From a bacterium UBP8_UBA817 (lineage in GTDB: Bacteria > Margulisbacteria > Marinamargulisbacteria > SXXA01 > SICP01), in assembly GCA_945888435.1 (NCBI GenBank), contig CAMCZW010000001.1:1-64000 (forward strand): 64,000 nt of DNA, written 5' to 3'. Within the stretch, counting starts at the first letter, position 1. Every line of letters begins with the position of its first letter. The position numbers and the translations under genes were made by a program. The notes below the pieces were generated by a model. It did not search any database. It was not told the DNA's origin and was given only the letters and a program-made list of their open reading frames with translations. This document shows, in pieces, positions 23,141-40,874 of this stretch.

Positions 23141-23292
23141 ACTAACACCCCGTCACTCCGTGCCACCCCTCTCTGAGAGGGGAATTAGTGAGGCGACATC
23201 TATCCAATAAAAAAGTTAGCCAATCCGAAAATTCCCCTTCAGTGAAGGGGTGGCACGCCGGATCTTTAGCGGAGGAGGGACGGGGTAGTTAA
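23141..23292. repeat. MITE-like palindromic repeat, family B, copy 1
   Basis: About 150 bp. It starts CACCCCGTCACTCCGTGCCA and ends with the complementary block (GGTGGCACG ... GACGGGGTAGTT). Two inner hairpins, CCCCTCTCTGAGAGGGG and CCCCTTCAGTGAAGGGG, lie within it. It fills the gap between the 52-aa ORF and the 3' end of the HATPase gene. An inverted, shortened copy lies at 26453-26568. Confidence 0.8.
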
Positions 23293-23903
23293 CTCTTCGT
23301 AGGAACCAAAACCTGAAAGTAAACGCGATGTGTATGCAGTGACTCCGATACAGAAGACACCTTAATCCCCAAATCCAATTTATAGCCCTTCAAAATCGAT
23401 AAAATACCTAATCCAGAGGAATCGCTTCCATCACCCAAAAATGACTTTTCAAGTTGAGACAAAAATAAGGCCTCGGCATCCGTTGTCGAGTGAAGCAGGG
23501 TAATAAAGTCCGCCAACCGATTACGGTTATGATCATCCGTGACATTCACAGATTCAATTTGGACATAATCCTTAAAGTGACGGATGGAAATGGTAATCAA
23601 TTTATTTTGATCAGATGAAAACTTAACCGCGTTTTCAATTAATTCATTAATGATAGTGGAGAGTAAAATCTCAACCTTGCGAGACAAGTAAAAGCTATAG
23701 GATTGATACTGAGCCAAATAATCTGAGGTCAGGCTGCATCGTTCCCACTTAACCATAAAATCAAGAGGGAGGACAAAGTCCATGGAGAGTTCAGGATAAT
23801 CTCTATCCCCAAATTTTGGAGTTTTATATAGACCATACATGATTTCAGAACGAGTATCTAAGTTTGCCATATTATTAAATGTTTTCGATAAGTAACCCAT
23901 CAT
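23289..23903 (-). CDS. HATPase-fold regulator (slr1658/DUF6272-like, anti-sigma-kinase type)
   Basis: About 204 aa. A GHKL ATPase fold is suggested by the N-box IINELIENAVKFSSDQN and a later G-box-like GDGSDSSGLGILSILKGY. It lacks a HisKA domain, like the SpoIIAB/RsbW type. Proteins of this form accompany STAS proteins, as here, in cyanobacterial slr1658/slr1659-like pairs. A longer frame exists from 23924, but AAGAGG sits 4 bases before the ATG at 23903, so I use that start. It overlaps the STAS gene by 29 bases. With the SpoIIE phosphatases at 27345 and 39703 it could form a partner-switching circuit. Confidence 0.75.
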   Translation of the reverse strand: MMGYLSKTFNNMANLDTRSEIMYGLYKTPKFGDRDYPELSMDFVLPLDFMVKWERCSLTSDYLAQYQSYSFYLSRKVEILLSTIINELIENAVKFSSDQNKLITISIRHFKDYVQIESVNVTDDHNRNRLADFITLLHSTTDAEALFLSQLEKSFLGDGSDSSGLGILSILKGYKLDLGIKVSSVSESLHTHRVYFQVLVPTKS

Positions 23904-24216
23904 ACAACCTCTTAAATAATCCAATAATTTTATCCTGCCATGGGCTGGTCTTGGATAGCCTGATGGTCATAGGCTTAGTGGATTGACGCGCGATAAATAC
24001 AAATCGGCCAAGTGCGGCAATGCCAGAACTATTTAAAAAATCGAGTCCCGTAATATCAATAAGATAAGAACTCTGAGCCGGATCACTGATTCCAGTCAGA
24101 ATATGTTGAAAAGGCTCTTCATAAGAAGATGGGGAGGGAAGTCTCATTTTGCCCGAAATAACAGCCACTGAGGGCTTTGAGCAATCAACTTGATAAGAAT
24201 CTGTCTTAATTATCAC
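23875..24216 (-). CDS. STAS-domain protein (slr1659-like anti-anti-sigma type)
   Basis: 113 aa, single STAS domain. The signature LIDITGLDFLNSSGIAALGRF (about residues 53-73) contains the SSG loop whose Ser is phosphorylated in SpoIIAA/RsbV proteins. It starts at GTG 24216 with GGAG 7 bases upstream. It overlaps the HATPase gene downstream. The expected logic is that the HATPase partner phosphorylates the STAS Ser and a SpoIIE-type phosphatase reverses it. Which output is controlled is not visible. Confidence 0.8.
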   Translation of the reverse strand: MIIKTDSYQVDCSKPSVAVISGKMRLPSPSSYEEPFQHILTGISDPAQSSYLIDITGLDFLNSSGIAALGRFVFIARQSTKPMTIRLSKTSPWQDKIIGLFKRLYDGLLIENI

Positions 24217-24308
24217 TCTAGAACTCCAGAAAAAGAAAAACTACATTGTGCATCATAATCAAAGCAAGACTAATCATATTGTACCACCATTTTAAGCAAA
24301 AATGAGAT

Positions 24309-25289: not shown

Positions 25290-25352
25290 TCACCCTAACA
25301 ATCACCTGAAAACCACCTAAAAATCAAAAATTCCAGATTAATCCAAACAATC

Positions 25353-25377
25353 GTGGGCGTATGCAATACGCCCCTAC
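25353..25377. repeat. Short palindromic repeat (GTAGGGGCGTAT type)
   Basis: An imperfect palindrome with perfect 8-bp arms GGGCGTAT and ATACGCCC around GCA, extended to GTGGGCGTAT at the left and CCCCTAC at the right. On the minus strand its edge supplies the TAG stop codon of the hypothetical gene at 25374. It is different in sequence from the GTAGAGACGC palindromes. Confidence 0.65.
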
Positions 25378-26378: not shown

Positions 26379-26452
26379 GGGGATTCTCCGAAAGTAAATT
26401 TTTACCCAATGGTAGTGGAGAGGTCGCGATTCTTGTAGCCCCTACGTTCCCA

Positions 26453-26568
26453 AACTACCCCTTCACTGAAGGGGAATTTTTCGGATTGGCTAATTTTAAG
26501 GATTAGATGTCGTCTTACTAATTCCCCTCTCAGAGAGGGGTGGCACGGAGTGACGGGGTGTTAGTGAC
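26453..26568. repeat. MITE-like palindromic repeat, family B, copy 2 (internally deleted)
   Basis: An inverted version of the copy at 23141-23292. The shared parts include the CCCCTTCACTGAAGGGG hairpin, the TCGGATTGGCTAA spacer and the CCCCTCTCAGAGAGGGG hairpin, ending GTGACGGGGTGTTAGTGA. About 35 bases next to one end are missing here. It sits in the 395-bp gap 26379-26773, in which I see no gene. Confidence 0.8.
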
Positions 26569-26602
26569 TGAATTGGCTACCTGAGTAACAGAAAATCGGA
26601 GT

Positions 26603-26658
26603 AAGGCCCTTCGATACACCCGCCGTCGCCAAGGCTATGGCGGGCACTCAGGGACCTT
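26603..26658. repeat. Imperfect inverted repeat around CCCGCC...GGCGGG
   Basis: AAGGCCCTTCGA near the left and CAGGGACCTT near the right bracket a central CCCGCCGTCGCC / TATGGCGGG inverted pair. It is GC-rich compared with its surroundings and lies in the same gene-free gap as repeat B copy 2. It looks like another short mobile palindrome, but no second copy is visible in this window. Confidence 0.35.
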
Positions 26659-26773
26659 TTCGGTCTACTTCGAAATTCTCTAGATCAGTGAGATCAAACA
26701 ACGTCAGTGATACCCATATGGGATTATGGATTACGGGAATAGTGTAGGGGGGAAACTTGTGGGTATAAGACTA

Positions 26774-27250
26774 TTAAAAAACATATGCAATCGAAACCTC
26801 ATTAAGACCAATTTGAAGAGTGAATGGATTAGTATGATGGTACTTATTCTTCATATGCATTTCAAAAGTTTTCTCTGAACTTCGTTTCGCCTGATCGGAT
26901 TTAAGAAACGCACCAGCAAAAACAGATACTGCACCACTTAAATACAGCAGATTTTTAAGAGGACGATAATCTTGCTCTATACGAGCAATATCATTTTCAT
27001 ATGTCGTTTCAGTATTTTTAATCTGAGTAGTGATTAAAAGAGTCATGATACCAAATGCAATAGAAAGATTGCCTTGACTATTACGACTTTCTTTTTTTTC
27101 AATTGCATCATTACGAATCTGTAATTCTTGTAAATCAAGATCTTTTAGATATCTTTCACTATAAGGATTAAACTGACTTTCAGTTGCAAAAGAAAAAGAC
27201 TTAGCAAATAAATTTGTACTTGAAATTGTAAATATCAATAATAAAACCAT
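26774..27250 (-). CDS. Small exported or membrane protein of unknown function
   Basis: 158 aa from the internal ATG at 27250. The N-terminus VLLLIFTISSTNLFAKS is a signal-peptide core but lacks the positive residues expected in front. An upstream ATG at 27266 followed by eight A residues is one base out of frame. With seven A's the start would read MKKIIMVLLLIFTISS, a textbook signal peptide. A hydrophobic segment lies about 65-80 and another near 100-115; the last residues (VSIAYVF) look like a beta-strand end. No family recognised. It is downstream of the SpoIIE gene's 3' side, same strand, 94 bases away. Confidence 0.6.
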   Translation of the reverse strand: MVLLLIFTISSTNLFAKSFSFATESQFNPYSERYLKDLDLQELQIRNDAIEKKESRNSQGNLSIAFGIMTLLITTQIKNTETTYENDIARIEQDYRPLKNLLYLSGAVSVFAGAFLKSDQAKRSSEKTFEMHMKNKYHHTNPFTLQIGLNEVSIAYVF

Positions 27251-27344: not shown

Positions 27345-29462
27345 TCAAACCACCTTCGCCACAATAAACGTCACATCATCATGAAACACCCCAGCCGAAA
27401 ACTCCTCCAAATCCTCCACCAATTTACCCTTAATAGCTTCCGCACTCTCCCCCAAATTCGCCAAAACCACATTCTTCAATCGATCCTCTCCATAATATTC
27501 AGCATCAACATCACCTCTGGCCACGGCCTCAGTAATCCCATCTGAAATCACAAGCAGAATATCCCCAGGATTCAATCCAAATTCAATCTGCTGAAAGTCG
27601 GCTGCAGTCAAAATATCCGTAAATCCTAACCCCAGTGGAAAATGATCGAGTGCAATGGTCTCAAATGAGCCTAGGTTGGCGCGATAGATGAGTAGGTTGT
27701 CATGACAGCCGCTAGCGACCACTTGGCGTGTGGTGGGGTCAAAACGGAGTGATGCGATGGTCATGGGGCGTTGCTCTTGGAGTCTTTGGAGGTTGGCGTA
27801 GAGGATTTGGTTGGCGGCATGATTGAGGTCTTTTGGCGAGATGGTTGGGGTGGAGTGGAGGATGGAGGTGATGATGCTTTGAACCATGAACATGACTAGA
27901 CCAGATGCGAGGCCGTGGCCGGTGACATCGCCTAGAAAAATCCAGGAATAGCCGCCGACGTTGATGACATCGTAGTAGTCGCCACCGACTTCATCTGCGG
28001 GTTGCATGAAACAGGCCAAATCCATGCCGGAGATGGTGGGGGATTTGGGAAGGATATCCATTTGGATATTCTGGGCGACGGTGAGTTCTGCGGATTTTTT
28101 GGTTTGGACGATGCGGTCCAGGGCTTGGGGGATTTGGAGGCGAACGGCGTTGAATAAATCGATGTCGTCGGAGTTGATGGGGTCTTCGCTTAATTTTTTA
28201 CCGAGTAAGATCAAGCAAATTAAATCGCCTGAGGGAGAAAAACAGGGGATGACCGCATGTGCCCCTAGCAACTTAAGAGTTTGTACATCATGGTCAGAAT
28301 CGCGAGTAGATAAAGTGGCATTTGCTTGGACCATCGCAGTTAATGCCGGATATTGGGAAATAGTAAAAGAGGATTCTGGATGTCTAAAATCGACAAAACG
28401 ATCTTGGGTCTCATGCTTCATTTCATAAAATTCAGGAAACGCGACTCGGACATCGGAGAACTCGGCATCATCCCCAAAGTGGGTTTCAACCACATGAACC
28501 ACATCTTCTAAAGAAGTCGATTTTGAAAATCCGTCAGAAAATTTCCCGAGTACTACCCTAAAACTATAGTGCCCCCTCAAAAAAAGTTTTTCTGCCGTCG
28601 TAATAATACGTAATCGTAATTTTTCAAAGGTAAAACCAGTGGTAAGTAACAGGATAGAAACGACCATAATTAGTGAAAACGTAATATATTCAGAAATATA
28701 AAATCGAAATAGAAGAAGAGTCGTGATGGCCACAGACAAATAAATACCGGCAGACACCAGGTTGGCCATGGTTCTAGAAATAATCAAATTGATATCTAAA
28801 AGCTGTTTCTTAGTGAGCGCATACATAATCATGCTGACATAAAGAACGACACAGACATTATCGAATCTAAAATTAGCGTTTTCAGCTATACCCATAAAAA
28901 AAGCAACAACGGAGACCATAATAATGACAGTTCCCCATAAAAAATACCGCATTTGATCACGTAAGTGGCCCGTACTATTTCTGAGTCGCCAAATGGCAAA
29001 GCCCAAAGCCAAAATCGCAACCGAAATCACATAGACCGAAAATAAGTCATACACAACGCCAGTGGACATCGTAAGCGTCGGGTGACCCTGCGTATATGTA
29101 ACAGATTTAAAGAATTCAAAATCAAAAATATTGGATAAATTGAAAAAAATCGCCAAGCCATAAGACAGATAAAGAAAGATAGGTTTAAGCCTAGTTTGAG
29201 TAAAGTGGACGATAAAATGAAAGTAAAACCCAGTACATAATGTGGCGCCAAAATGGGATAACTTATACCAAAATAATGGGGTCTGATATGCAATCAGAGG
29301 CGTTAAAAAAAAGATGTCTCCAAAAATCCATAAAGTAAGCATCAACAAAAATACAGAAAAAAGTTGATGCAAAAAAGACTTTGGATGCTGAATAAAGATA
29401 AAAACGCTTAACCCGAATGTAAATGAGAGGGCAAAAATAGAAGAAAGTAAAAAAGCGTCCAT
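27345..29462 (-). CDS. Membrane-bound SpoIIE-type PP2C phosphatase with sensor region
   Basis: 705 aa. Residues about 1-230 hold around seven or eight transmembrane helices, then a GAF-like region (about 310-460), then the SpoIIE/RsbU PP2C domain. PP2C marks: ADEVGGDYYDV (metal site), FLGDVTGHGLASGLVM, and GDILLVISDGITEA, followed by a late VFHDDVTFIV. It would dephosphorylate a phospho-STAS protein in response to a membrane or ligand signal. SD AGAGG is 6 bases before the ATG. It follows the reductase-aminotransferase gene by 9 bases, so it is the last gene of that operon. The STAS/HATPase pair at 23289-24216 is a plausible partner. Confidence 0.88.
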   Translation of the reverse strand: MDAFLLSSIFALSFTFGLSVFIFIQHPKSFLHQLFSVFLLMLTLWIFGDIFFLTPLIAYQTPLFWYKLSHFGATLCTGFYFHFIVHFTQTRLKPIFLYLSYGLAIFFNLSNIFDFEFFKSVTYTQGHPTLTMSTGVVYDLFSVYVISVAILALGFAIWRLRNSTGHLRDQMRYFLWGTVIIMVSVVAFFMGIAENANFRFDNVCVVLYVSMIMYALTKKQLLDINLIISRTMANLVSAGIYLSVAITTLLLFRFYISEYITFSLIMVVSILLLTTGFTFEKLRLRIITTAEKLFLRGHYSFRVVLGKFSDGFSKSTSLEDVVHVVETHFGDDAEFSDVRVAFPEFYEMKHETQDRFVDFRHPESSFTISQYPALTAMVQANATLSTRDSDHDVQTLKLLGAHAVIPCFSPSGDLICLILLGKKLSEDPINSDDIDLFNAVRLQIPQALDRIVQTKKSAELTVAQNIQMDILPKSPTISGMDLACFMQPADEVGGDYYDVINVGGYSWIFLGDVTGHGLASGLVMFMVQSIITSILHSTPTISPKDLNHAANQILYANLQRLQEQRPMTIASLRFDPTTRQVVASGCHDNLLIYRANLGSFETIALDHFPLGLGFTDILTAADFQQIEFGLNPGDILLVISDGITEAVARGDVDAEYYGEDRLKNVVLANLGESAEAIKGKLVEDLEEFSAGVFHDDVTFIVAKVV

Positions 29463-29471
29463 CTCTAACCT

Positions 29472-32400
29472 CTATCTGAAGGCAGAAGAAACTACTTTAA
29501 GTGGAGAGAATTGAGCAACAAAAGAAATACAATTCACGATTTTGAGGGCCTCATCTTTGGTTAAAGTTAGTGCGGGTTCGATACGCACAATATTACCACT
29601 GTTTAGGGTAAATGCGACCAAAACCGGATACGGCGCCAATTTCATACATGCCCCACAAAAAAGTGCAGAAACATAATCTTTTAATGCCGACATCTGAAAG
29701 GGGAATTTTGAGTCATCCAATTCAAGCCCAATCATCAGTCCTTCGCCACGCACTTTTCGGATCAGCGACTTGCCTTCAAGAGATTTGAGAGAGGAGATAA
29801 TAAAATCACCCATTTGTTGGGCATTGTCTTGCAAGTTTAAGTCCTGGGCTTTTTTAAGCGCATTTAATGCAACAAAAGCACCCACTTGATGATTAAAGTG
29901 AGAATCGGCTAATGCCATATACGGGGCATTGTTTTTCTTGGCTTCACGATAAACCGGGTCACTCACTAATACACAGGCATTAGGGAATGTCATATCGCTT
30001 AAGCCTTTGGCGACAGTGATAATATCAGGAGTAAGAAATTTACGCTGAAAGTTAAAACAAGTTCCCGTGCGATATAAGCCGGATTGGATTTCATCGAGTC
30101 CAATTAAATAATGGTGGTCTTGTCTGGCTTTTTGAATATGCTCAATCACTGATTTGGGTATCGGTCTAATCCCGGCTTCACCTTGGATCAACTCAAACCA
30201 CACTAGTCCAACCGGATATCGCTTAATAAGGGTATCAAATTGACTTGTGAAATCGGGTTTCCATGGGTCTAAAAATAAAACATGATCATAAAGCGGCCCA
30301 AATGGCGTACGGTATTTATCTTTGGCGGTACCGCTTAGAGACAATAACGTTTTACCTGCAAACCCACCTTTAAAGACAATAATATAAGGCTTTTCTGGGC
30401 AGGCAAGTAATGCCATCGACATTGCCATATCTACCGCACTTGCACCGCTGACGGAGATAAAACAGCGAGACAATCCTGATATCCGGCACATCTCTGCTTT
30501 AAGCTGAGAACTATAATTGGTCGCTTGATTAAATGTCGCCAAATGATCTGTCATATCAGCTGGGCTATGGCCACGTAAGCTGCATCCAAAACTACCCAAG
30601 GCATCGATACATTCCACATCTTGATTTTGCTTATTTCTAATCTTAAGGATGCTCTGATGGGCACTGACCACCATATTAGCCATCCCAATCGCAGTCAGAA
30701 GCAATTTAAGTTTAGGATTAATATATTTTTGATAGTAGGTAAGCGTCATCTGATGAGAATCTCCAATCTCATTCATCTGATTCAAAATACTTGCAGGGAT
30801 TGTTACCGACGTCGTAATTGAACGAATAATCGATATCAAAAGCAATAAATTGTAGGCATAAGTGGAGGTATGCAAAATACAATTATCGATGGTATTCCAT
30901 GGCTTATAGGTAGTGCTATCGACACAGAAAACCGCCGATGGAAGTTGATAATTTGTGAGCGTCGGTCCTGCAACCATTCCCGCAAATTTAAATGGAAGCA
31001 CCGGAAGCTGGTCTAATGACAAAGACGAAATATCAATAAACATCGGGATACGAAACGACACTAGTTGACGACTGCTCTCTTTGATTTTCTCAATGGAGTC
31101 TTGATCAGTAAGTGTCATCAACACCCCCGCAACCAAATGCGGCGTCTTCTGAATTCTAGCCATTAATTCTGGAAGGGTTTTAAAAAAACTAACTCCTGGG
31201 CGAGTATCCAAATCAAAGGAGGCCAGCGGCTGGCTCATCGCCGATAAACTACCATCAGGATCAAAACAACAAAATTGATGTCTCGTTTTAGACCCTTGCC
31301 GACTTAATTTGATTAATCCATCAACAGCTTCATATCTGGAACTGCAAAAAAACGACTTAAATGGACGTCTAAGCGGTTGGGTGGATAGAGATTGAGCCAA
31401 ATGATCTAGCAACAACCCTGCCTGCGCACATTCCTGATGAATAAAGGACTGTAAAATCGTCGGTCTCTGAGTCTGATTAAGCGTTAAAATCGAGTCAATG
31501 ACATCATTCATACTTCCTGTATAAAGCGCGGGCTGAATAGCAGGAAGTGTCACGAATAACTTTTCAATAATACGCGCAGGCTCTAAAAGATACGGACTAA
31601 CATCAATAACCGAAGTAAGCCCATCTGTCTGAAATGGTTTTTCACTAGGAAACACCAAATGCCTAAGCGAAAACCCTTCTTGCTGAAATAAAAGAGAAAA
31701 AGAATATTCTGGCACAGTTTCACGTAGATAATCCGTAAAAAGCGATACCCATTCATCAAATGGAACTGTCATGACAGGACTTAACCGGCTCGTCAGTTTT
31801 TTCAAGGAAATCAGATCATAGTGATTGGGATTTACCACATTAAAAATGTCATACCCAGTTGATGCTTTTTGAGCAATCGCAACAACCGCATCCCGTACAA
31901 AATTAACGGGGCTAAAATCCAATTGAAAATCCACATCCGGGAAAATTCGGCGTTTCACACAAAATTCTGGAATATAATTAAACAGATCCTGAGGATTACC
32001 AATACCAGTTTCTAAGTCAGTCATGACATTACCTAGGCGTAACACAGAGACGGAAATCCCTTGTTTAGCCGCATTTTGAAGCAACTTTTCAGCGACCCAC
32101 TTGGACTTGATATATCCCAAATGCATCGCAAATGGTTCATCGGGTAATGGCGCTTCAGAAAAGGGCTGATCGCTGGATACACCAAACGATAGCATCGCCG
32201 AATAACTGGAAATAAAATTGAATTTTTTAAGCCGATTCAAGATTGCAAATTTAAGGAGATGTTGGGTAGAGCCGAGTGCCGTCCCACGGATCATCGAATA
32301 CGAAAATGCAAAGTTAACTAGTCCCGCACAATGAACGATCGAATCCACTAAAAAGGAGAGCGCGCGATACGTATCTACCGGCAATCCAAAATAATTTTCA

Positions 32401-32807
32401 GATAAATCCCCTTTAAATACAGTAATTCGATGATCATCACCCTCATGCCAAAGTCGACGGGATTTCATACTCATGATCAAGCGAGACTTGGCATGATCTT
32501 GAGAATCTCCACGTACAACACAATAAACATGAGCATCCGTTTTCCTCAAATAAGAAGACAAGACATGAGACCCAACAAACCCAGTTGTGCCAGTTAATAA
32601 AATGGCTTTAAAAGGGGGAGTAGGGGGCGTCCTATCCTCAGGAAACTCCATCGAAAATGAGGTGTCCGATTTTAAAATATCTAATTCAGGTTCACGCTGG
32701 TCGGTATCAATAGAATAACGCTGAGCTTGTTTCAACTTTTCCAAAATTATTGTTTTTTGTGCGGGAGACAAGCAATCAAAAACGCGCTTAAAATCCTCAT
32801 TTAACAT
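29472..32807 (-). CDS. Thioester reductase fused to tandem class III aminotransferase domains
   Basis: 1111 aa from the ATG at 32807, chosen because GAGGG lies 5 bases before it; a start at 32819 is possible. Residues about 70-440 are an NAD(P)-binding thioester reductase as in carboxylic acid reductases and NRPS terminal domains (LLTGTTGFVGSHVL; catalytic YIKSK near 230). Residues about 470-700 look like a decayed aminotransferase. Residues about 740-1100 are an intact class III PLP aminotransferase (GLDEIQSGLYRTG, PLP Lys in ITVAKGLSD near 940). Expected reaction: acyl-thioester to aldehyde, then to primary amine. The substrate donor is the carrier-fused ligase encoded just upstream, overlapping by 11 bases. 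The logic resembles TamH of tambjamine biosynthesis. Confidence 0.82.
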   Translation of the reverse strand: MLNEDFKRVFDCLSPAQKTIILEKLKQAQRYSIDTDQREPELDILKSDTSFSMEFPEDRTPPTPPFKAILLTGTTGFVGSHVLSSYLRKTDAHVYCVVRGDSQDHAKSRLIMSMKSRRLWHEGDDHRITVFKGDLSENYFGLPVDTYRALSFLVDSIVHCAGLVNFAFSYSMIRGTALGSTQHLLKFAILNRLKKFNFISSYSAMLSFGVSSDQPFSEAPLPDEPFAMHLGYIKSKWVAEKLLQNAAKQGISVSVLRLGNVMTDLETGIGNPQDLFNYIPEFCVKRRIFPDVDFQLDFSPVNFVRDAVVAIAQKASTGYDIFNVVNPNHYDLISLKKLTSRLSPVMTVPFDEWVSLFTDYLRETVPEYSFSLLFQQEGFSLRHLVFPSEKPFQTDGLTSVIDVSPYLLEPARIIEKLFVTLPAIQPALYTGSMNDVIDSILTLNQTQRPTILQSFIHQECAQAGLLLDHLAQSLSTQPLRRPFKSFFCSSRYEAVDGLIKLSRQGSKTRHQFCCFDPDGSLSAMSQPLASFDLDTRPGVSFFKTLPELMARIQKTPHLVAGVLMTLTDQDSIEKIKESSRQLVSFRIPMFIDISSLSLDQLPVLPFKFAGMVAGPTLTNYQLPSAVFCVDSTTYKPWNTIDNCILHTSTYAYNLLLLISIIRSITTSVTIPASILNQMNEIGDSHQMTLTYYQKYINPKLKLLLTAIGMANMVVSAHQSILKIRNKQNQDVECIDALGSFGCSLRGHSPADMTDHLATFNQATNYSSQLKAEMCRISGLSRCFISVSGASAVDMAMSMALLACPEKPYIIVFKGGFAGKTLLSLSGTAKDKYRTPFGPLYDHVLFLDPWKPDFTSQFDTLIKRYPVGLVWFELIQGEAGIRPIPKSVIEHIQKARQDHHYLIGLDEIQSGLYRTGTCFNFQRKFLTPDIITVAKGLSDMTFPNACVLVSDPVYREAKKNNAPYMALADSHFNHQVGAFVALNALKKAQDLNLQDNAQQMGDFIISSLKSLEGKSLIRKVRGEGLMIGLELDDSKFPFQMSALKDYVSALFCGACMKLAPYPVLVAFTLNSGNIVRIEPALTLTKDEALKIVNCISFVAQFSPLKVVSSAFR

Positions 32808-34839
32808 AGCTACCCTCATAAGATGTGATTGACGTCAGTGGTTTAATCCCAAGTTCAAAAAATACTCGATTGAGCAACGCAGGATCGGCTTGGCTCAATT
32901 TACGGGACTGCTCTTTGGATACTAACGCTTCAATATCGGCCACGCAGTGAGTCCTAAGGAGATCATCTAAAGAAATAGAGATGGAAAATCGGATATCCAG
33001 TGTCGTCAAAAACTCAACAAATTGCATAGATGAAAAACTATCCCACTGGATCGGGGCATTAGCTGATGTCATGGCCTGAGTGAAAATAGAATTAAAAATA
33101 TCTAGGATATCAAAGTGTTCAGTCGATTTATCTTCAGAAGACCAGACGAAAACCGACTCGATTTGCCCACTAAGACATTGCTCTTTAATAAATGATCTTT
33201 TTAATTTACCACTTGATGTTTTAGGCATAGATGCTGGTTTAATCAAAATTAATCGACCAAGGCTAATCCCAAATTCATCCTGTATCGCAGCTTTAATTAG
33301 TCTGACAATCGGAGAAAAATCCGCAAGATGAAGATGCGAGCGCTTAAGCTCAGCCACAATCCCTACTTGTTCAGCAGCTCCTGATGTAAACGAAAACGCG
33401 ACGACGCCATGACAATAAAAGGCATCGCCAGAGTCTTCACAAACTCGCTCGATATCATGAGGGAAATAGTTTTTTCCATTCACAATAACGACTTCTTTAA
33501 TTCGGCCAGTTACATGAAGATGTTGATTGTGATTAAAAAAACCAAGATCGCCAGTACGCATATAGGGACCAGCCCCAGTCGAGGTAAAGGCATGAAATGT
33601 CTCCTTTGTTTTTTCAGGATCATTCAAATATCCCATTGCTACCGAAGTCCCTGACAACCATATTTCGCCAATGGTATTGGGCGCGCATACCGTTAATGTA
33701 TCAGGATTAACAATTTTAACCGTCATCTCATCGTAAAAAATTCCAGACGAGACGACATTTTTATAGACTTGGCCATTCCCTAAATCGAGAGTCGTGGCCA
33801 TCGGATCTTCAAAAAATGGCTTCGCAGTAACCATCAAAGTTGCTTCCGCTAACCCATAGGATGGACAATGCGCCGACCCAGAAAATCCAAACCTAGAAAA
33901 TGATTCTGTAAACCGATCAAGTGTCCCCATATGAATCGGCTCTGACCCATTATAAGCCGAGGTCCAGCACGATAAATCGAGCGAAATATCCGTATCCAAT
34001 CGCTTAAGGGCTTCAACACAATGGTCATACCCAAAATTAGGGCCTCCCGTATGATTAACCCGATATTTTGAGATAATTTCTAGCCATTTCAATGGGTTTT
34101 TAACAAAATGCGCCGGCGTCATTAAATGGGCAATATGGCCGGTATAAAGAGGCTCTAAAATACCGCCAATCAACCCCATATCATGAAATTGAGGTAGCCA
34201 GGAGGCACTCACAGTCTCAGTAGTGAGTCCAAAAGACTTTTGAATATATTTCACATTCGAAAGTAAATTACTTTGCGATACCATCACGCCTTTAGGTGCG
34301 CTGGTAGAGCCAGACGTATATTGCAAAAACGCCAGAGAATTCGCGTGGATATCCGGCATCACAAACTGAGACGCAAGTGACAAATCAATACCATCGGTAG
34401 AAATCAATCCAAGTGACTCAGAGAGTTCTGAAAATTTTTGACTACAGTGTCTTAGTGTTGCCGCATCAGTAAATGCCAATGTGGCACCGGCATTGTTGGC
34501 AATTAGCATTAGCCGATCAATTTGCTTGCGATTTCGAGGAGGGTAGGCCGGAACTGCAACCGCACCCGAGTATAGGCATGCGACAAAGCCAATCACGAAG
34601 TCGATCCCTTGAGGGTATAAGAGTAAAATGGGTCTTCCCAAAATATCTGGATACTGCTGAGTGAGTAAAACCGCCAATGCTTTCGCTGTTCGGTTTATCT
34701 CAGAAAATGTAATAGATGTTTCATTTAAAGATTCAGATAAAAAAGTGAATGCAATGGACTGATCTAATGCGTCAAAATGAGTTAAAAAATGTGATGTGAG
34801 TGTTGAACTTAGTGTATGTGCGTGACAAATAGGCAACAA
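32797..34839 (-). CDS. Fatty acyl-AMP ligase fused to an acyl carrier domain
   Basis: 680 aa, TTG start with a strong GGGGGG ribosome site 7 bases away. Residues about 1-575 form an adenylating enzyme of the FAAL type: GAVAVPAYPPRNRKQIDRL, P-loop YTSGSTSAPKGVMVS, MRTGDLGFF, and the C-terminal Lys in PKTSSGKLKRSF. The C-terminal 90 residues form a carrier domain with WDSFSSMQF, whose Ser (after Asp) would carry phosphopantetheine. It activates a fatty acid and loads it on its own carrier, as TamA does. The phosphopantetheinyl transferase at 39123 could install the prosthetic group. Chain length and modifications cannot be read. Confidence 0.87.
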   Translation of the reverse strand: MLPICHAHTLSSTLTSHFLTHFDALDQSIAFTFLSESLNETSITFSEINRTAKALAVLLTQQYPDILGRPILLLYPQGIDFVIGFVACLYSGAVAVPAYPPRNRKQIDRLMLIANNAGATLAFTDAATLRHCSQKFSELSESLGLISTDGIDLSLASQFVMPDIHANSLAFLQYTSGSTSAPKGVMVSQSNLLSNVKYIQKSFGLTTETVSASWLPQFHDMGLIGGILEPLYTGHIAHLMTPAHFVKNPLKWLEIISKYRVNHTGGPNFGYDHCVEALKRLDTDISLDLSCWTSAYNGSEPIHMGTLDRFTESFSRFGFSGSAHCPSYGLAEATLMVTAKPFFEDPMATTLDLGNGQVYKNVVSSGIFYDEMTVKIVNPDTLTVCAPNTIGEIWLSGTSVAMGYLNDPEKTKETFHAFTSTGAGPYMRTGDLGFFNHNQHLHVTGRIKEVVIVNGKNYFPHDIERVCEDSGDAFYCHGVVAFSFTSGAAEQVGIVAELKRSHLHLADFSPIVRLIKAAIQDEFGISLGRLILIKPASMPKTSSGKLKRSFIKEQCLSGQIESVFVWSSEDKSTEHFDILDIFNSIFTQAMTSANAPIQWDSFSSMQFVEFLTTLDIRFSISISLDDLLRTHCVADIEALVSKEQSRKLSQADPALLNRVFFELGIKPLTSITSYEGSYVK

Positions 34840-34898
34840 TAATCCCCCCTTCCCATAGGTAGGCGCACTATATCAAATTAAAAATTCCTAAACAACAC

Positions 34899-35666
34899 TT
34901 AAGCGCGGATCGACAAAAATATCCGATAGATCACTTCATCCAAATGGTCACACCCACTAGATAAAATAGGAAGTACTTCCGCAGGATCACATTCTCCCTC
35001 TCTCAAAAGCGTGCTCATCCCCACAATGACATGAAGCGGCGTGCGTAAGTCATGACTCATTTGCGATAAAAAGAGGGTTTTCTCATGATTGTACCTCCTG
35101 GCCATCTCCATCTCTTCCCTAAAAGTCTTAAGCTGAGAGCTGACCATTTCTTCTAGATTTTGGTTAAGCCTAGTCAACTGCCGATACAAATCTCGGGTAG
35201 AAGAAATAGTTAAAATACGCTCCATCACCACTTCAAGTTGGCTCCTAATGACATACAGCCATCGGGTATCCCCTGGTCGAACTGGCAAAATAATTACGCC
35301 ATGCAACTGATGATTGGCGACAATCGGACATAGTAATTGCGCGCCTTCTAATCCTAGTTGATCAAAAATAATATTCGCAGAAGTGGAGATATTTAGTAAC
35401 TTCGGCCATTCATCTTTTTGAATAAAATAGTGAATTGGAGAGTGGCGAAGTAAACAAGAATGTTGACTCTCTTCCTGAGGGGACACTCGTACAATATCCC
35501 CCGTTGATGTGGATTCTGGCCGAAATAAAACATAGGCGCACCAAGTGTCAAAATACTCCGATAAATATGAAATAACCGACCAATAGGCATCATCACATTC
35601 TTCTGTATGCAGCAGCCTCTTAGAAATTAACGCAATGACACCCTCAGTAGTAGCCAAAAAACTCAT
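34899..35666 (-). CDS. GAF-HisKA protein lacking an ATPase domain
   Basis: 255 aa. A GAF-like N-terminal part (about 20-150), a coiled coil (about 155-195) and a HisKA dimerisation helix with the phospho-accepting SHDLRTPLHVIVGMS (about 206-220) are present. The protein ends right after HisKA (YRIFLSIRA), so no HATPase domain exists. The next gene, 59 bases downstream, has no frame to extend it. It overlaps the hybrid kinase gene by 4 bases (ATGA) and shares its layout. It could be a phosphotransfer partner or a heterodimer subunit of that kinase. The missing domain may also mean degeneration. Confidence 0.72.
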   Translation of the reverse strand: MSFLATTEGVIALISKRLLHTEECDDAYWSVISYLSEYFDTWCAYVLFRPESTSTGDIVRVSPQEESQHSCLLRHSPIHYFIQKDEWPKLLNISTSANIIFDQLGLEGAQLLCPIVANHQLHGVIILPVRPGDTRWLYVIRSQLEVVMERILTISSTRDLYRQLTRLNQNLEEMVSSQLKTFREEMEMARRYNHEKTLFLSQMSHDLRTPLHVIVGMSTLLREGECDPAEVLPILSSGCDHLDEVIYRIFLSIRA

Positions 35667-37393
35667 AAGGCATTACCTAAACAAAGTCTAGAAATACACT
35701 GCAAAATATCCTGTAACGTAGCAGGTTTAGAAAGATAGTCATCAAATCCATATGACAAGCACCGCTCTCTGTCACCAGACATTGCCTGTGCGGTTAGCGC
35801 CACAATCGGGCAAGGTATCCATCCCTGGATTTTTTTAATGCAGGATAGGGCATCTATCCCATTAAACATTGGCATTCGGATATCCATTAAAATTAAATCA
35901 TAATGATTCTGACGAGCAGCTTCAATGGCCGCGGCACCAGAGTCCACAATATGCAATTGAAATTCATCTTTTAGCAACAGCGACGCATATTCCCGATTTA
36001 GCAAATCATCGTCACATAAAAGTACCGACAACTGGCGATAATCCGGATGAGGGAAAACGGCTTCTTTCGCAAGCATCACCATTGGTAGTCCCACATGAGA
36101 GTGATGCATTGGGACATGAAAATGCACACGTGTCCCCACGTCGGCGGTCACATCCACCCAAATTTGCCCGCCTAATAACGAAATAATATCCACGCAAATC
36201 GATAACCCCAACCCCCATCCGGTCACTTCCGAGGCATGATCCGTCAGCGGCTCAAACAAATAAGGATGAAGTGCGTCCGAAATCCCGCAACCCGTATCCT
36301 TAATACAAATTTCCAAGACCGGTTTGGGGGAATCTCCATCTCTAATCCAGGTACTGAGCCCAATACGGCCAGACGAGGTATGTTTAATCGAATTAGACAG
36401 CAAGTTCATAATCAGCTGATTTACTTTTACTGCATCCAAAAAGTACCGTGACTCCAAAGAATGATGATGCATTACCTCATATTGAACTGGTTTACCTTTT
36501 AAAAGATGTGAAAGCGTCTGATCAATTTCCCCAAAAAAAGCACGAAGTTCGACCTGCGTATAATCAATTAAATGATGAGAAGTAGGAGGCGCATCAAAAT
36601 TTAAAATATCATCTAACAAATGTCGTAGCCGATCGACACTACCACCTAATAACGCGACTGCGTTAGGAACTTGGGGAGGATCAATTTCCTTTAAAATCAT
36701 GGCCTGAGTTAACCCTCTGATGACTTGTAACGGAGTTCTTAAATCATGAGTAATTTTGGCTAAAAAATCAGTTTTATATCTGGCTTCATGGCGATGCAAA
36801 AGTTTGGCCTGATTAAGTTCTACTGCTTGTGTATTCATTTTCTTTTGGAGTTGAGAATTAAAACGTCCCAACTGACGATTAGCTTCCTCCAAATCCTCTA
36901 AAGATAAAATTCTCTCAAAAACCAACACTAATTCTGCACATAAAACCGATAAAAAGTTCAATTCATTTTCAGAAAAATCTGATTTAGACTTTGGGGGGCC
37001 TATCAAAATAATGCCATGGAATGTATTACGGGTCCTCACCTGAACACATAAAAAAGACTCCTCCAAAGAAAAGTGCGGCAGAAAATCAGAAAGAGACTTT
37101 GGAAATAACATAGCCTCCAGGATCGGTGTATTAGAGATTGTCGGTAAAAGGGATTCCAAATGTTTTTCATATTCAAAAGACATAAGTTGAGTCGGGATAT
37201 CTCCTGCAAAAATTGGAGAATAGTGTAAAAACCGCTGCCGAAATCCATAGGAAGACGGAAACACAACCACAAAACGAGGAGATAATAAGGTCATGATTTT
37301 CTGAGAAATCAATTCAAAAACACGTGATCTGTGCTTAAGTGGAACCAGTTGAACAATAATGGCAGAAAGCTCTGCAGATAAATCAAAAGCCAT
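35663..37393 (-). CDS. Hybrid sensor histidine kinase with receiver domain
   Basis: 576 aa from ATG 37393. The longer GTG start at 37411 lies just after a promoter -10 box and is unlikely to be transcribed. GAF-like region about 25-175, coiled coil to 215, HisKA with THDLRTPLQVIRG (about 221-233), HATPase with NQLIMNLLSNSIKHT, KDTGCGISDALHPY and GWGLGLSICVDII, and a C-terminal receiver (LSVLLCDDDLLNREY, LILMDIRMPMFNG, Lys in YLSKPA). There is no membrane segment, so the signal is cytosolic. It is the first gene of the predicted operon with the acyl-ligase and reductase and is divergent from an NtrC-type regulator. Confidence 0.88.
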   Translation of the reverse strand: MAFDLSAELSAIIVQLVPLKHRSRVFELISQKIMTLLSPRFVVVFPSSYGFRQRFLHYSPIFAGDIPTQLMSFEYEKHLESLLPTISNTPILEAMLFPKSLSDFLPHFSLEESFLCVQVRTRNTFHGIILIGPPKSKSDFSENELNFLSVLCAELVLVFERILSLEDLEEANRQLGRFNSQLQKKMNTQAVELNQAKLLHRHEARYKTDFLAKITHDLRTPLQVIRGLTQAMILKEIDPPQVPNAVALLGGSVDRLRHLLDDILNFDAPPTSHHLIDYTQVELRAFFGEIDQTLSHLLKGKPVQYEVMHHHSLESRYFLDAVKVNQLIMNLLSNSIKHTSSGRIGLSTWIRDGDSPKPVLEICIKDTGCGISDALHPYLFEPLTDHASEVTGWGLGLSICVDIISLLGGQIWVDVTADVGTRVHFHVPMHHSHVGLPMVMLAKEAVFPHPDYRQLSVLLCDDDLLNREYASLLLKDEFQLHIVDSGAAAIEAARQNHYDLILMDIRMPMFNGIDALSCIKKIQGWIPCPIVALTAQAMSGDRERCLSYGFDDYLSKPATLQDILQCISRLCLGNAL

Positions 37394-37401
37394 AGTCAAA
37401 A

Positions 37402-37429
37402 AGGATAGCACAGATACGTCGCGTCACAA
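37402..37429 (-). promoter_or_regulatory. Promoter of the hybrid kinase / fatty amine operon, leaderless
   Basis: Minus strand: TTGTGA (37429-37424), spacer 16, extended -10 TGCTATCCT (TATCCT at 37407-37402). Eight bases then lead to ATG 37393 and there is no ribosome site. It is back to back with the promoter of the regulator at 37440, so the two units share a very short control region. Confidence 0.6.
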
Positions 37430-37476: not shown

Positions 37477-38835
37477 ATGCAAAATGAAAAAAAGCCAGCC
37501 GTATTAGTAATCGACGATGACACCTTAATTTTAGAGTCCATGATATTGACCATGGCCGCCCGCTACACAGTAAGTACGGCAGAATCCAGCGATTCCGCAA
37601 TGGAAAAAATTAAAGTCCAAGCTTTCGACGCTATTTTGCTCGACGTCAAAATGCCAGAAAGTAATGGAGTTGAACATCTTAAGAAAATCAAGGAAGCCGT
37701 TAAAGAGGTTCCCGTTATCATGTTCTCTGGAGTATCAGACATTGCGCAAGTCATCGATTGCATTAAATCGGGTGCATTTAGTTATGTAGTTAAAGGTAGG
37801 GATTTAAAAGAGTTATACGAGGCCATCGACATTGCCATCATGTCCAGCAAGCCCGAGCCAAAAAAAAATACTCAAAATACCTCAAAAAGTGAAAACGCAA
37901 CCTGTATTATTGGTAAATCTTCACAAGCCACCATGGCATTTGAAGTTGCACGAGACATCGCACCTGCCAGGGACATCAGCATCCTTATCACAGGAGAAAC
38001 CGGCGTGGGTAAAGAGGTTCTCTCCCGCTATATCCACGAGCATTCAGGGTCAAAAAACTCACCATTTATTGCCATCAATTGCGGTGCTATCCCAGAATCT
38101 CTCATTGAGTCCGAACTATTTGGGCATGAAGCAGGAGCCTTTACCGACGCACATCAAAAACGAATCGGTAAATTTGAAGCGGCCAATGGAGGGACTATTT
38201 TTTTAGATGAAATCAGCACAATGCCCATCCATCTTCAGGTCAAACTTTTGAGAGTCCTTCAAGAAAAAAAGATCGAGCGCATTGGCAGCTGTAAATCCAT
38301 CCCCATCGATGTTCGACTCATCGCTGCCACCAATACCAATATCGAAACCGAAATCAGCGAAGGAAAATTTCGCCAAGACCTCTACTATCGGATTCGAGGA
38401 ATCGAAATCCAACTCCCCGCACTAAGAGACAGATCCGAAGATTTTGAATTATTTTTAACCAACTTTGTCACTTATCACACTAATAAATATCAATTGCCTA
38501 CTAAAAAAATATCCAAATCCCTCATCAATCTTCTCAAAATGGCCCCATGGAAAGGCAATATCCGAGAACTCTACCAATTCGCCGAAGTCCTCGTTTTTCT
38601 ACTCAAAAAAGAAACCGAAATCACCATCCAGAATTTCCCAAAACAATGCTTAACCAGACTATTGATGGATTACAGTATGCTCAAAAAGAATGATATTTCC
38701 GTCCAAAAAGCCATCATGAGACGCACGATTGATGCGTTTCAGGGAAATATCACCGCGACGGCTCAATTTTTTAATGTAGATCGATCTACGATCTACCGGT
38801 TATTGGGGGACGAAATTCCGGCGGATTCGCCTTAA
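37477..38835 (+). CDS. NtrC-family sigma-54-dependent response regulator
   Basis: 452 aa. Receiver about 1-125 (VLVIDDDTLILE; phospho-Asp in LLDVKMPESNG near 55; Lys in YVVKGRD). AAA+ domain about 145-375 with Walker A GETGVGKEVLSRY, the sigma-54 contact loop GAFTDA where the consensus is GAFTGA, and Walker B GGTIFLDEI. A Fis-type helix-turn-helix ends the protein (NITATAQFFNVDRSTIYRLL). It is transcribed divergently from the hybrid kinase, so the kinase (and the GAF-HisKA protein) is the likely phosphodonor. A candidate target promoter of the sigma-54 type lies at 22897. The Gly to Asp change in the contact loop is unusual. Confidence 0.92.
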   Translation: MQNEKKPAVLVIDDDTLILESMILTMAARYTVSTAESSDSAMEKIKVQAFDAILLDVKMPESNGVEHLKKIKEAVKEVPVIMFSGVSDIAQVIDCIKSGAFSYVVKGRDLKELYEAIDIAIMSSKPEPKKNTQNTSKSENATCIIGKSSQATMAFEVARDIAPARDISILITGETGVGKEVLSRYIHEHSGSKNSPFIAINCGAIPESLIESELFGHEAGAFTDAHQKRIGKFEAANGGTIFLDEISTMPIHLQVKLLRVLQEKKIERIGSCKSIPIDVRLIAATNTNIETEISEGKFRQDLYYRIRGIEIQLPALRDRSEDFELFLTNFVTYHTNKYQLPTKKISKSLINLLKMAPWKGNIRELYQFAEVLVFLLKKETEITIQNFPKQCLTRLLMDYSMLKKNDISVQKAIMRRTIDAFQGNITATAQFFNVDRSTIYRLLGDEIPADSP

Positions 38836-39122: not shown

Positions 39123-39737
39123 TTACCCATCAACCCAACATACCGCGCCGAAATATCCGATTGGTAAAATTTCGGTGATAGTAGAGACGCCCAGATTGGG
39201 CGTCTCTACGGGGATTGTGAAAATTCCTTTACCCGATGCTTTTGTGGTGGCTTCTTTTTTTGTCCATAATTCAAAAAATTTATTTTCTTTATTTTTGGGA
39301 GAGGTGGTCCTTAATTGGGTTTGGTCTTGTGCGGAAAACACTCGGGCAGCGACGGCGTCCATTGAATGGACTGAGCGTTGATATTCGATATCGATACCGA
39401 CTTGGTGGGATGAGATAACGATTGCGATCAAATCTTGGGCATGACTCATATTGAAATGAAGATGAGAGGCTTGGGAGAGGTAGGGCTTCCCTAATGAGGT
39501 GTATGAAAATGAAATAGAAGTAGGGGGGCAAGATAATTCTTGGGCCAAGACCGTTTTTAAAAAATAGCGAGCAGCTAAAAATCGGCGGCCAGCCTCTGAG
39601 ACTTTAAATGACTCGTATCTATTTTTCTCTAACTCATCTAAATAGGAGAGGGCGTCACTCTCAGACCATTTTGATCGAATATCACATAAAAAAAGATGAG
39701 AGTTAAACTGAAGCGGGTGCCGCGTCATCACATACAT
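39123..39737 (-). CDS. 4'-phosphopantetheinyl transferase (Sfp/AcpT type)
   Basis: 204 aa. It transfers phosphopantetheine from CoA to carrier-protein serines. Motifs: GRRFLAARYFLK, LGKPYL, HFNMSHAQD, the metal-binding VGIDIEY (about 110-116) and FFELWTKKEATTKASGKG (about 150-167). Just after the last motif, residues about 177-186 (VETPNLGVST) are encoded by the palindrome at 39181-39209. The catalytic motifs are intact, so activity is likely. The start region overlaps the SpoIIE gene by 35 bases. The nearest obvious substrate is the carrier domain of the acyl-AMP ligase at 32797. Confidence 0.88.
   Translation of the reverse strand: MYVMTRHPLQFNSHLFLCDIRSKWSESDALSYLDELEKNRYESFKVSEAGRRFLAARYFLKTVLAQELSCPPTSISFSYTSLGKPYLSQASHLHFNMSHAQDLIAIVISSHQVGIDIEYQRSVHSMDAVAARVFSAQDQTQLRTTSPKNKENKFFELWTKKEATTKASGKGIFTIPVETPNLGVSTITEILPIGYFGAVCWVDG
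39181..39209. repeat. In-frame palindromic repeat inside the phosphopantetheinyl transferase gene
   Basis: 29 bp with 13-bp perfect arms GTAGAGACGCCCA and TGGGCGTCTCTAC around GAT. It is read in the same phase as the polA copy (VET...). It shares the outer 10 bases GTAGAGACGC with that copy, while the inner arms differ, each copy keeping its own symmetry. The insert adds about ten residues after the last catalytic motif. Confidence 0.85.
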
Positions 39738-40785
39738 GAAGAATCACCAATGTCCGGTCATCGTCCATCGCCGCACCCCCAGAAAACTCAGAAACACGGT
39801 CTAAAATAATTGTCTTGGCATCGGCAGGAGAAAGCAAGTATGTATCTTTAAAAATTTGAATTAAGGCATCCGTACCCAACATTTCAGACTCTGAGTTTTT
39901 AACCTCAAGTAATCCATCTGTATAAAACATCAAGCGATCACCAGGCATAAGCTGGATTTCTTTTTCCTCATATACTTCATCAGAAAACATCCCTAAAAAC
40001 ACACCTTCGGTTTCTAAGACTAAATGACTTTCATCTTTTCTAATCACCACACAAGGATGATGCCCTGCCTTGGTATAAACAAACCGTCGAGTTTCGATAC
40101 TAAGTACTCCAAAAAAAGCAGTCACATAGGGGACTTCAGAATTAGAAATAAACTTACAAATGACACTATTTGCTTGTCGTAAAATCTCTGCAGGAGAGCT
40201 TAAATTAGCGCATAATTCCCGCAAAATACCCGAAGTTAGCGCCATCACCAATGCAGACGCAATTCCATGCCCAGCAACGTCACCAATGGCAATTCCAAGT
40301 TGTTGCGACCGGGTATCCACATACTGAGTGACACCTGGTAATGAATGGGTTTGGGTAGTTGCGGAAATACGATTACGACTAACAAGGGTATAAAAATCAC
40401 CACCCACATTTTCAGCGGGTATACAGGCCATGGCAAATTCAATTCCAGGGATAGAAGGGATCTCAGCCGATAACAATCCCTGTTGAACGTTCTTCGCCAT
40501 TTGTAATTCTTTATGGTACTTATCTTCAATTTCATGGATACCGGTTGCAAAAACGCCGCTTCCTTCCAATCCTTCTAATATTGACGAGGGAATCACTTGT
40601 TTGGAGTCATCCAAAATCTCATCAGTTTCTCGATTAGAAGGCTTTTCTGCAGGAACATACTTAAATGACACCACAAGGCCAATTAAAAATAAAAAAAATA
40701 CCCAACGGGGAGCGTCAATAAAGTCGGTAGCTATATACCCACCGGTCAATAAGACGATAAAGAGAAAATCTAATTTTGAAATCAT
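39703..40785 (-). CDS. Membrane-anchored SpoIIE-type PP2C phosphatase
   Basis: 360 aa from ATG 40785, with GGAAAA upstream. A longer frame from 40860 merely translates the tRNA-Cys gene and is rejected. Two N-terminal transmembrane helices (DFLFIVLLTGGYIATDF; VFFLFLIGLVVSF), a linker, then the PP2C domain: AENVGGDFYTLV, GIAIGDVAGHGIASALVMA, TKAGHHPCVV, GDRLMFYTDGLLEV, MDDDRTLVIL. All metal-binding Asp residues appear present. It may regulate a phospho-STAS protein, like the paralogue at 27345. It directly follows the tRNA gene and overlaps the phosphopantetheinyl transferase gene. Confidence 0.9.
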   Translation of the reverse strand: MISKLDFLFIVLLTGGYIATDFIDAPRWVFFLFLIGLVVSFKYVPAEKPSNRETDEILDDSKQVIPSSILEGLEGSGVFATGIHEIEDKYHKELQMAKNVQQGLLSAEIPSIPGIEFAMACIPAENVGGDFYTLVSRNRISATTQTHSLPGVTQYVDTRSQQLGIAIGDVAGHGIASALVMALTSGILRELCANLSSPAEILRQANSVICKFISNSEVPYVTAFFGVLSIETRRFVYTKAGHHPCVVIRKDESHLVLETEGVFLGMFSDEVYEEKEIQLMPGDRLMFYTDGLLEVKNSESEMLGTDALIQIFKDTYLLSPADAKTIILDRVSEFSGGAAMDDDRTLVILHVCDDAAPASV

Positions 40786-40800
40786 TTGATTTTTCCATGA

Positions 40801-40874
40801 TGGAGGCGGCGCCCAGATTCGAACTGGGGATAGAGGTTTTGCAGACCTCGGCCTTACCACTTGGCTACGCCGCC
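40801..40874 (-). tRNA. tRNA-Cys (GCA)
   Basis: 74 nt with encoded CCA. The acceptor stem GGCGGCG pairs with CGCCGCC, the discriminator is U, the anticodon loop CTGCAAA holds GCA (40840-40842), and the T arm carries GTTCGAATC. All stems pair. It lies between purB and the SpoIIE phosphatase on the same strand. Confidence 0.97.

Follow-up and report, generated by a model that had tools for sequence, protein, structure and literature searches.

A predicted fatty amine pathway encoded beside a seven-transmembrane SpoIIE phosphatase suggests a chemical-signalling unit in Margulisbacteria

Which small molecule is made by a run of ligase, reductase and aminotransferase genes, and why does that run continue into the gene for a membrane phosphatase? 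The question is raised by the first 64,000 nucleotides of contig CAMCZW010000001.1 (assembly GCA_945888435.1) from the bacterium UBP8_UBA817, a member of the Margulisbacteria; we call this whole stretch the window and count positions from its first letter. A sequence-only reading had described a run of close or overlapping minus-strand genes here and proposed that they make a fatty amine. We analyzed the window genome (G000) and a comparison set of 26 related genomes by Pfam and NCBIfam profile searches, alignments, hhalign and trees, and our statements on function are predictions from sequence; genomes carry labels in G and loci labels in L. The run was confirmed as a gene set at 27345-37411. 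The genes singled out earlier probably serve to convert a fatty acid to a fatty amine, and the comparison with related genomes suggests that this molecule is a chemical signal, the synthase and the neighboring membrane receptor being exchanged jointly between species.

The first enzyme of the predicted pathway is a fatty acyl-AMP ligase (FAAL) of 680 residues, encoded at 32797..34839 on the minus strand. It matches the AMP-binding profile (E = 3.7e-52) and a DIP2-like AMP domain, its best single-function NCBIfam matches are FAAL families, and its adenylation motifs (YTSGST, HDMG, TGRIKE, and TSSGKLKR) are intact, with the catalytic Lys present. The ligase had been described as carrying a carrier domain, and this holds in part. 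The C-terminus gave no Pfam match to a carrier; aligned with the canonical carriers of related loci, it places WDSFSSMQF under GGNSLIATQ, so the Ser is present, and about five residues ahead of that Ser are missing relative to the relatives, which shortens the loop. An Sfp/HetI-type 4'-phosphopantetheinyl transferase (PPTase; 39123..39737, minus strand; ACPS 2.3e-13, HetI 3e-32), which had been overlooked, is encoded beyond the kinase end of the run, some 1.7 kb upstream. It has a syntenic counterpart in G001, a genome of the same family, and could load the FAAL carrier as its activator.

The second enzyme is a fusion of 1115 residues (29472..32819, minus strand). Its N-terminus (approximately 31887-32597) is a thioester reductase of the short-chain dehydrogenase/reductase (SDR) type (NAD_binding_4, 1.9e-47; TIGR01746 above cutoff) with a Tyr236/Lys240 pair, and its C-terminus (approximately 29523-30614) is a class-III aminotransferase (Aminotran_3, 4.5e-43), so both domains originally assigned to this gene are borne out. 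Alignment to class-III enzymes showed that the aminotransferase keeps the key residues K938, D909, E876, and R1079 and the motif SGASAV, and that it lacks the HG(S/T)TFGGNP motif. The 300 residues between the two domains have no Pfam match, and a degenerate aminotransferase domain in this region (approximately 30654-31538) had escaped notice. It is collinear with class-III aminotransferases in an hhalign comparison with 13 such enzymes (E = 4e-4); because the probability is just 34.5%, and because comparison with the aminotransferase domains of both orthologs themselves gave no support (E = 0.099), the assignment of a pseudo-aminotransferase leans on the collinear motifs. The domain has lost the pyridoxal phosphate (PLP) Lys (VAGPTLT) and has kept HTST(Y/F)xxN, and the complementary loss in the two domains is common to both orthologs despite their 36% identity. 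Class-III aminotransferases are dimers in which the Thr of HG(S/T)T reaches into the active site of the partner. From the complementary motif loss and this trans-acting Thr we infer that the fusion is a one-chain pseudo-dimer with a single active site. Structure predictions made from two-sequence alignments were unusable (mean pLDDT 36 for the fusion and 39 for the phosphatase).

A full-length fusion was found in two of the 74 genomes searched for the phylum, namely that of the window and a 'Candidatus Marinamargulisbacteria' metagenome-assembled genome from another family of the same class (G014, locus L023; protein P0011). The two proteins are 35-36% identical over nearly their whole length (E = 1.4e-193), and such end-to-end alignment with an ortholog from another family argues that the fusion is more than a chance joining. 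The sequence-only reading had proposed a search for the same gene order in relatives. At L023, the order is FAAL-carrier, stand-alone condensation domain, reductase-pseudo-aminotransferase-aminotransferase and, 58 bp downstream of the fusion, the same phosphatase gene, cut by the contig end; on account of the added condensation domain, the amine may in that organism be coupled to another moiety. Two groups of matches were set aside: aminotransferase-only matches in relatives look like ordinary stand-alone class-III enzymes, and the Bacteroidota matches of a genome scan cover the reductase part only.

In the window, 9 bp separate the fusion gene from the gene for the membrane phosphatase (P0005; 27345..29462, minus strand). 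As had been claimed, this is a membrane SpoIIE protein: an N-terminal seven-transmembrane (7TM) domain of the HisKA_7TM family (28791-29435; 1.9e-14) is followed by a SpoIIE domain (8.9e-33) with the PP2C acidic motifs EVGGDYYD, GDVTGHG, SDGITE, and HDDVT. We propose this 7TM-SpoIIE protein as the receptor. Two further minus-strand genes that had gone unremarked encode a STAS-type phosphoprotein of the slr1659 superfamily with an LNSSG motif (23875..24216; NF047705, 2.2e-20, below the curated cutoff), the proposed SpoIIE substrate, and a DUF6272/RsbW-like HATPase (23289..23924; HATPase_c 8.7e-4 and DUF6272 3.2e-4, both below the gathering score), the proposed STAS kinase. The pair is syntenic across the class, and orthologs of the STAS gene lie beside the HATPase and 7TM-SpoIIE genes in G019, G021, and G023. 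In many genomes of the class, 7TM-SpoIIE occupies one neighborhood (ribH to purB), with accC-nusB-ribE-ribBA-ribH on one side, a second SpoIIE gene and purB on the other, and the STAS/HATPase pair adjacent; several loci end at contig ends, so that only one flank is visible.

When we considered class HisKA_7TM genes with a same-strand gene no more than 111 bp upstream, 19 of 24 followed an acyl or small-molecule enzyme, often overlapping it (one has a 161-residue membrane protein in between, and in three the upstream protein belongs to the uncharacterised LBL_2463 family). The type of enzyme varies widely. The FAAL and reductase-aminotransferase of the window recur in G014; an alpha-oxoamine synthase takes their place in G001 (BioF/SPT/CqsA-type, 5e-46) and at G009:C406; G019 has an AfsA-type hotdog protein (4.9e-24) and a HAD-like protein, G021 a 420-residue protein and a methyltransferase, and G023 a FAAL and a reductase related to PDB 9e4s and to the N-terminus of PigE. 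Nonribosomal peptide synthetase/polyketide synthase (NRPS/PKS) genes with a FAAL, thioesterase or terminal reductase precede the sensor in G009, G012, G017, and G026, a reductase plus KASIII, a methyltransferase or an alpha/beta hydrolase on other contigs of G012, a PKS or 4HBT thioesterase in G003, and LBL_2463-family proteins in G007 and G008. The AfsA and BioF/SPT/CqsA-type families make known signals elsewhere. G001 retains purB, the second SpoIIE, the PPTase, the NtrC gene and a kinase around its alpha-oxoamine enzyme, which matches BioF with a higher score than it does the autoinducer-synthase model. Immediately upstream of the genes for SpoIIE proteins that lack a 7TM domain (G011, G016, G020, and G025), no such synthase was recognised.

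The exchange can be followed within a single genus, to which G019, G021, and G023 belong and in which the locus is conserved gene by gene. Identities are 67-78% for LexA, 51-70% for the HATPase, 76-88% for the STAS protein, 71-81% for an MFS protein, 79-84% for ParB, and 86-91% for the second SpoIIE (51-91% for the flanking genes overall), and the SpoIIE catalytic domain of the 7TM gene is 76-85% identical. The 7TM part of the same gene is only 20-30% identical, and the synthases come from unrelated enzyme families. Past the membrane segment the identity climbs back, at a position that varies from pair to pair. The three synthases have a similar N-terminal leader (61% identity between G019 and G021 across the aligned portion of the N-terminal 70 residues, and a weak similarity of about 32% with G023) and a common promoter-like stretch upstream; the synthase body behind the leader looks as if it had been replaced. 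Across the class, the sequences show an apparent joint replacement of synthase and matching 7TM sensor, with the phosphatase and the partner-switch genes staying in place.

An independent leader, KAEDIAFK(V), sometimes repeated, heads enzymes with unrelated bodies whose genes immediately precede 7TM genes in G012 (L118:590-1882, L120:2369-3484, and L075:1956-2684) and G007 (L108:4851-6011 and L109:9220-9984). When the whole class was searched with a degenerate DNA pattern for KAEDIAF, allowing one mismatch, exact matches were confined to those genes, with two one-mismatch matches in G008, and the reversed control pattern had no matches in the class. This leader may act in docking or targeting, or may be a processed leader.

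We then compared the history of the sensors with the type of synthase. In a tree of 25 7TM domains from the class, sensors encoded beside PLP-dependent amine-forming synthases, defined as reductase-aminotransferase or alpha-oxoamine synthase, form one side of a branch (94/89), which occurs in 94% of bootstrap trees; none of 500 shuffles gave a value as low. Members of the clade come from three families and are fused to a SpoIIE output in some cases and to a kinase output in others, and the other 7TM domain of G009, which lies beside NRPS/PKS genes, falls elsewhere in the tree. The grouping recurs when sister-class sequences are added to the tree (49 rows; 96) and when the set is reduced (98/97). 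The SpoIIE-domain tree follows taxonomy (family f13, including the genus trio, 100/99; G000 with G001, 94/90). On the 7TM data, the pairing of G000 with G001 is rejected in the approximately unbiased (AU) test (p-AU 0.003) in favor of G000 with G014, which share a synthase. Because the sensor clade is shared with loci of alpha-oxoamine synthases, which leave an amine on the acyl chain, it lends indirect support to an amine product.

How would such a unit work? For the enzymatic steps we drew on family knowledge, on the residues described above and on the TamA/TamH cascade of Pseudoalteromonas tunicata, in which conversion of a fatty acid to the fatty amine tail of tambjamine YP1 was measured (PMC9594044, in excerpt). 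The PPTase would load the FAAL carrier, the FAAL would activate a fatty acid as acyl-AMP and transfer it to its own carrier, and the N-terminal reductase would release the acyl group as a fatty aldehyde. The C-terminal aminotransferase would then make the fatty amine, the catalytically dead pseudo-aminotransferase of the same chain supplying the trans PLP-phosphate Thr. For sensing and STAS signalling we relied on gene coupling and co-variation: the phosphatase next door would detect the amine, or a simple derivative, through its 7TM domain and would then dephosphorylate the STAS protein, opposing the HATPase kinase in a partner switch that would change gene expression. The kinases and the NtrC regulator probably serve this circuit as an additional branch, on either the input or the output side. 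The route to a fatty amine originally proposed remains the best reading of the enzymes, and ligase, reductase and aminotransferase all have their catalytic residues.

On balance we lean toward regarding the locus as a chemical-signalling unit, resembling quorum sensing, in which the amine is sensed by the adjacent 7TM-SpoIIE protein. More tentatively, the Margulisbacteria may possess a phylum-wide family of such units, in which diverse synthases (fatty amine, alpha-oxoamine, AfsA-type, acyl reductase, NRPS/PKS, KASIII, and thioesterase) are swapped as cassettes with their cognate 7TM domains on fixed SpoIIE or kinase outputs, the signal of the window being a fatty amine from a single-chain pseudo-dimeric aminotransferase. 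Several observations weigh against these proposals. The FAAL carrier, as judged by alignment, is atypical. The STAS/HATPase pair lies 3 kb from the phosphatase gene with an opposite-strand gene between. Two enzyme families are pooled under the label of PLP amine synthase, which was adopted in the course of the analysis, the NRPS/PKS-linked sensors fall into several clades (3-4 changes), and for the genus trio rejection on the 7TM data is marginal (p-AU 0.048). Nearly all of the genomes are fragmented draft assemblies. In a sample of 25 7TM genes from the sister class, nine encode 7TM kinases that neighbor recO and lack an adjacent synthase, so a 7TM domain need not have a synthase partner; several others in this sample lie behind reductase-like, ketosynthase, SDR or methyltransferase genes.

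The alternative that survives best, which we nevertheless consider unlikely, is secondary metabolism under stress or envelope control. The fatty amine (or a lipopeptide elsewhere) would act as an antimicrobial or as a surface lipid; the 7TM-SpoIIE protein, instead of being a receptor for the product, would sense the membrane or environment and turn the cluster on. The NRPS/PKS products of G009, G012, and G026 do look ordinary, with thioesterase release, and two-component and NtrC genes beside the cluster suit the regulation of a biosynthetic cluster. But this explanation leaves open why the sensor, and not the phosphatase, changes with the synthase, and why the sensors of reductase-aminotransferase and alpha-oxoamine loci form a single clade across families; AfsA and single small synthases also suit signals better than antibiotics. 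As judged from this co-variation with the synthase, the 7TM-SpoIIE gene is a more telling link than the kinase and NtrC genes.

It is quite unlikely that no fatty amine is formed, the aminotransferase acting on another (for example amino-acid-type) substrate or the reductase running on to the alcohol. The missing HG(S/T)TFGGNP motif and the shortened carrier would fit this, and we know of no characterised enzyme with the layout of this fusion. Yet neither ortholog has lost the Lys, Asp, Glu, or Arg of the aminotransferase, the conserved pseudo-aminotransferase carries the missing motif, and in the characterised fusion TamH the aminotransferase takes the aldehyde freed by the reductase (PMC9594044, in excerpt). 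That the amine is an intermediate of a larger tambjamine-like product with genes elsewhere is very improbable: the genes match TamA and TamH in function (PMC9594044, in excerpt) and the L023 locus has its condensation domain between ligase and reductase genes, but domain order and reductase family are unlike TamH, and, as had been noted earlier, no pyrrole-forming enzyme was recognised by inspection of the window's open reading frames (ORFs), the rest of the genome not having been screened.

The signalling unit that we favor can be set against known systems. It resembles TamA/TamH in pairing a ligase, here with a putative, shortened carrier, with a reductase-aminotransferase fusion, the two together being predicted to convert a fatty acid to a fatty amine. 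The parallel drawn in the sequence-only reading is one of function. It fails for domain order and reductase family: TamH (941 residues) has an N-terminal aminotransferase and a C-terminal AAR-family reductase and lacks a pseudo-aminotransferase, and no 7TM-SpoIIE neighbor is described in the excerpted account (PMC9594044). Orthology to TamH was rejected on these two grounds, and the window fusion, with its N-terminal SDR-type reductase, is an analogue. PigE of prodigiosin 2-methyl-3-n-amylpyrrole (MAP) biosynthesis (NF053554) likewise has a reductase followed by a class-III aminotransferase and is the second-best NCBIfam match, in the aminotransferase part (2.9e-52); the fusion scores far below the equivalog cutoff (178 versus 850 bits), and the N-terminal part of PigE resembles the AAR-like protein of G023 and not the SDR-type reductase.

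In CqsA/CqsS and LqsA/LqsS, a PLP enzyme for a lipid-derived signal is encoded beside a multi-transmembrane receptor, and the alpha-oxoamine synthase of G001 stands at the equivalent position; in contrast to those systems, the output of the window receptor is a SpoIIE phosphatase rather than a kinase, and the synthase type varies between species. In ComQXP and Agr pherotypes, hypervariable signal-making and sensing parts are exchanged jointly and the effector is conserved, but there the variants are peptides, whereas here whole enzyme families are exchanged. In the modules of SpoIIE, RsbU, and SiaA, a sensor-SpoIIE phosphatase, a HATPase kinase and a STAS substrate are encoded close by one another, as are their candidate counterparts in the window, but the window-type sensor is HisKA_7TM and co-varies with a neighboring small-molecule synthase; RsbU, a SpoIIE-type phosphatase, is switched by a bound partner protein (PMC12143880, in excerpt). 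In the open-licence literature we found no account of signalling or quorum sensing in Margulisbacteria, of synthase-linked 7TM-SpoIIE receptors or of fatty-amine signals. The single elements are of known kinds, and their combination, with the exchange of whole synthase families and matching sensors, appears to be new. If the proposal is correct, it provides candidate synthase-receptor pairs for a phylum in which we found no cell-cell signal described, adds 7TM-SpoIIE phosphatases to the classes of signal receptor, and offers a one-genus series, with the same phosphatase and different sensors and synthases, for matching ligands to orphan HisKA_7TM sensors.

The remaining genes of the run are regulatory. 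The claimed hybrid kinase is present (HisKA-HATPase-REC; 35663..37411, minus strand, with a possible ATG start at 37393), as is the divergent NtrC-type sigma-54 activator response regulator (37477..38835, plus strand), both identified with Pfam; in G001, the kinase is 30% and the NtrC ortholog 47% identical. The protein described as GAF-HisKA (34899..35666, minus strand) has the HisKA dimerisation domain (9.6e-11) as its only match and no ATPase domain, and no GAF domain was found by Pfam in it or in the hybrid kinase. The 4-base overlap reported in the run is exact, and that of 11 bases requires the reductase to begin with its fifth codon; counted from the first ATG, the overlap is 23 bases. 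The kinase and the NtrC regulator had been suggested to control the operon. A scan for sigma-54 (-24/-12) sites found fewer than expected by chance, with no match where the operon begins; sigma-70 promoter-like and terminator-like matches were no more numerous than in shuffled sequence. The second SpoIIE phosphatase (39703..40860, minus strand; SpoIIE 1.8e-48), also overlooked, adjoins purB class-wide; its true start must be later, because the ORF start overlaps tRNA-Cys (40801-40874).

Between the STAS and 7TM-SpoIIE genes lie a plus-strand alpha/beta hydrolase gene and two orphan ORFs without any Pfam match (25374-26378 and 26774-27250), and a strong GC-skew dip (-0.33 at 24-26 kb) falls within 24001-27250. 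A 523-residue ORF at 17852-19423 without a Pfam match looks PP2C-like by eye (ADGVGGGQSP) and would be a third phosphatase near the site, and a gene at 9451-10026 resembles, by eye, a transposase associated with repetitive extragenic palindromic elements (Y1-type). HisKA_7TM sensors also occur in Deinococcota and archaea among the control genomes. In the sister class, a HisKA_7TM histidine kinase is conserved just ahead of a recO-like gene (L135-L138, L140, L141, L143, L148, and L150) and forms a separate 7TM clade; proteins of 803 and 951 residues are encoded upstream of 7TM kinases at L142 and L152 (G062 and G035), one of them with a region similar to an AAR-like reductase; and L139, L149, and many frames of about 1090 residues carry one or two tandem HisKA_7TM domains, followed in the two sampled (L139 and L149) by a response-regulator-like gene.

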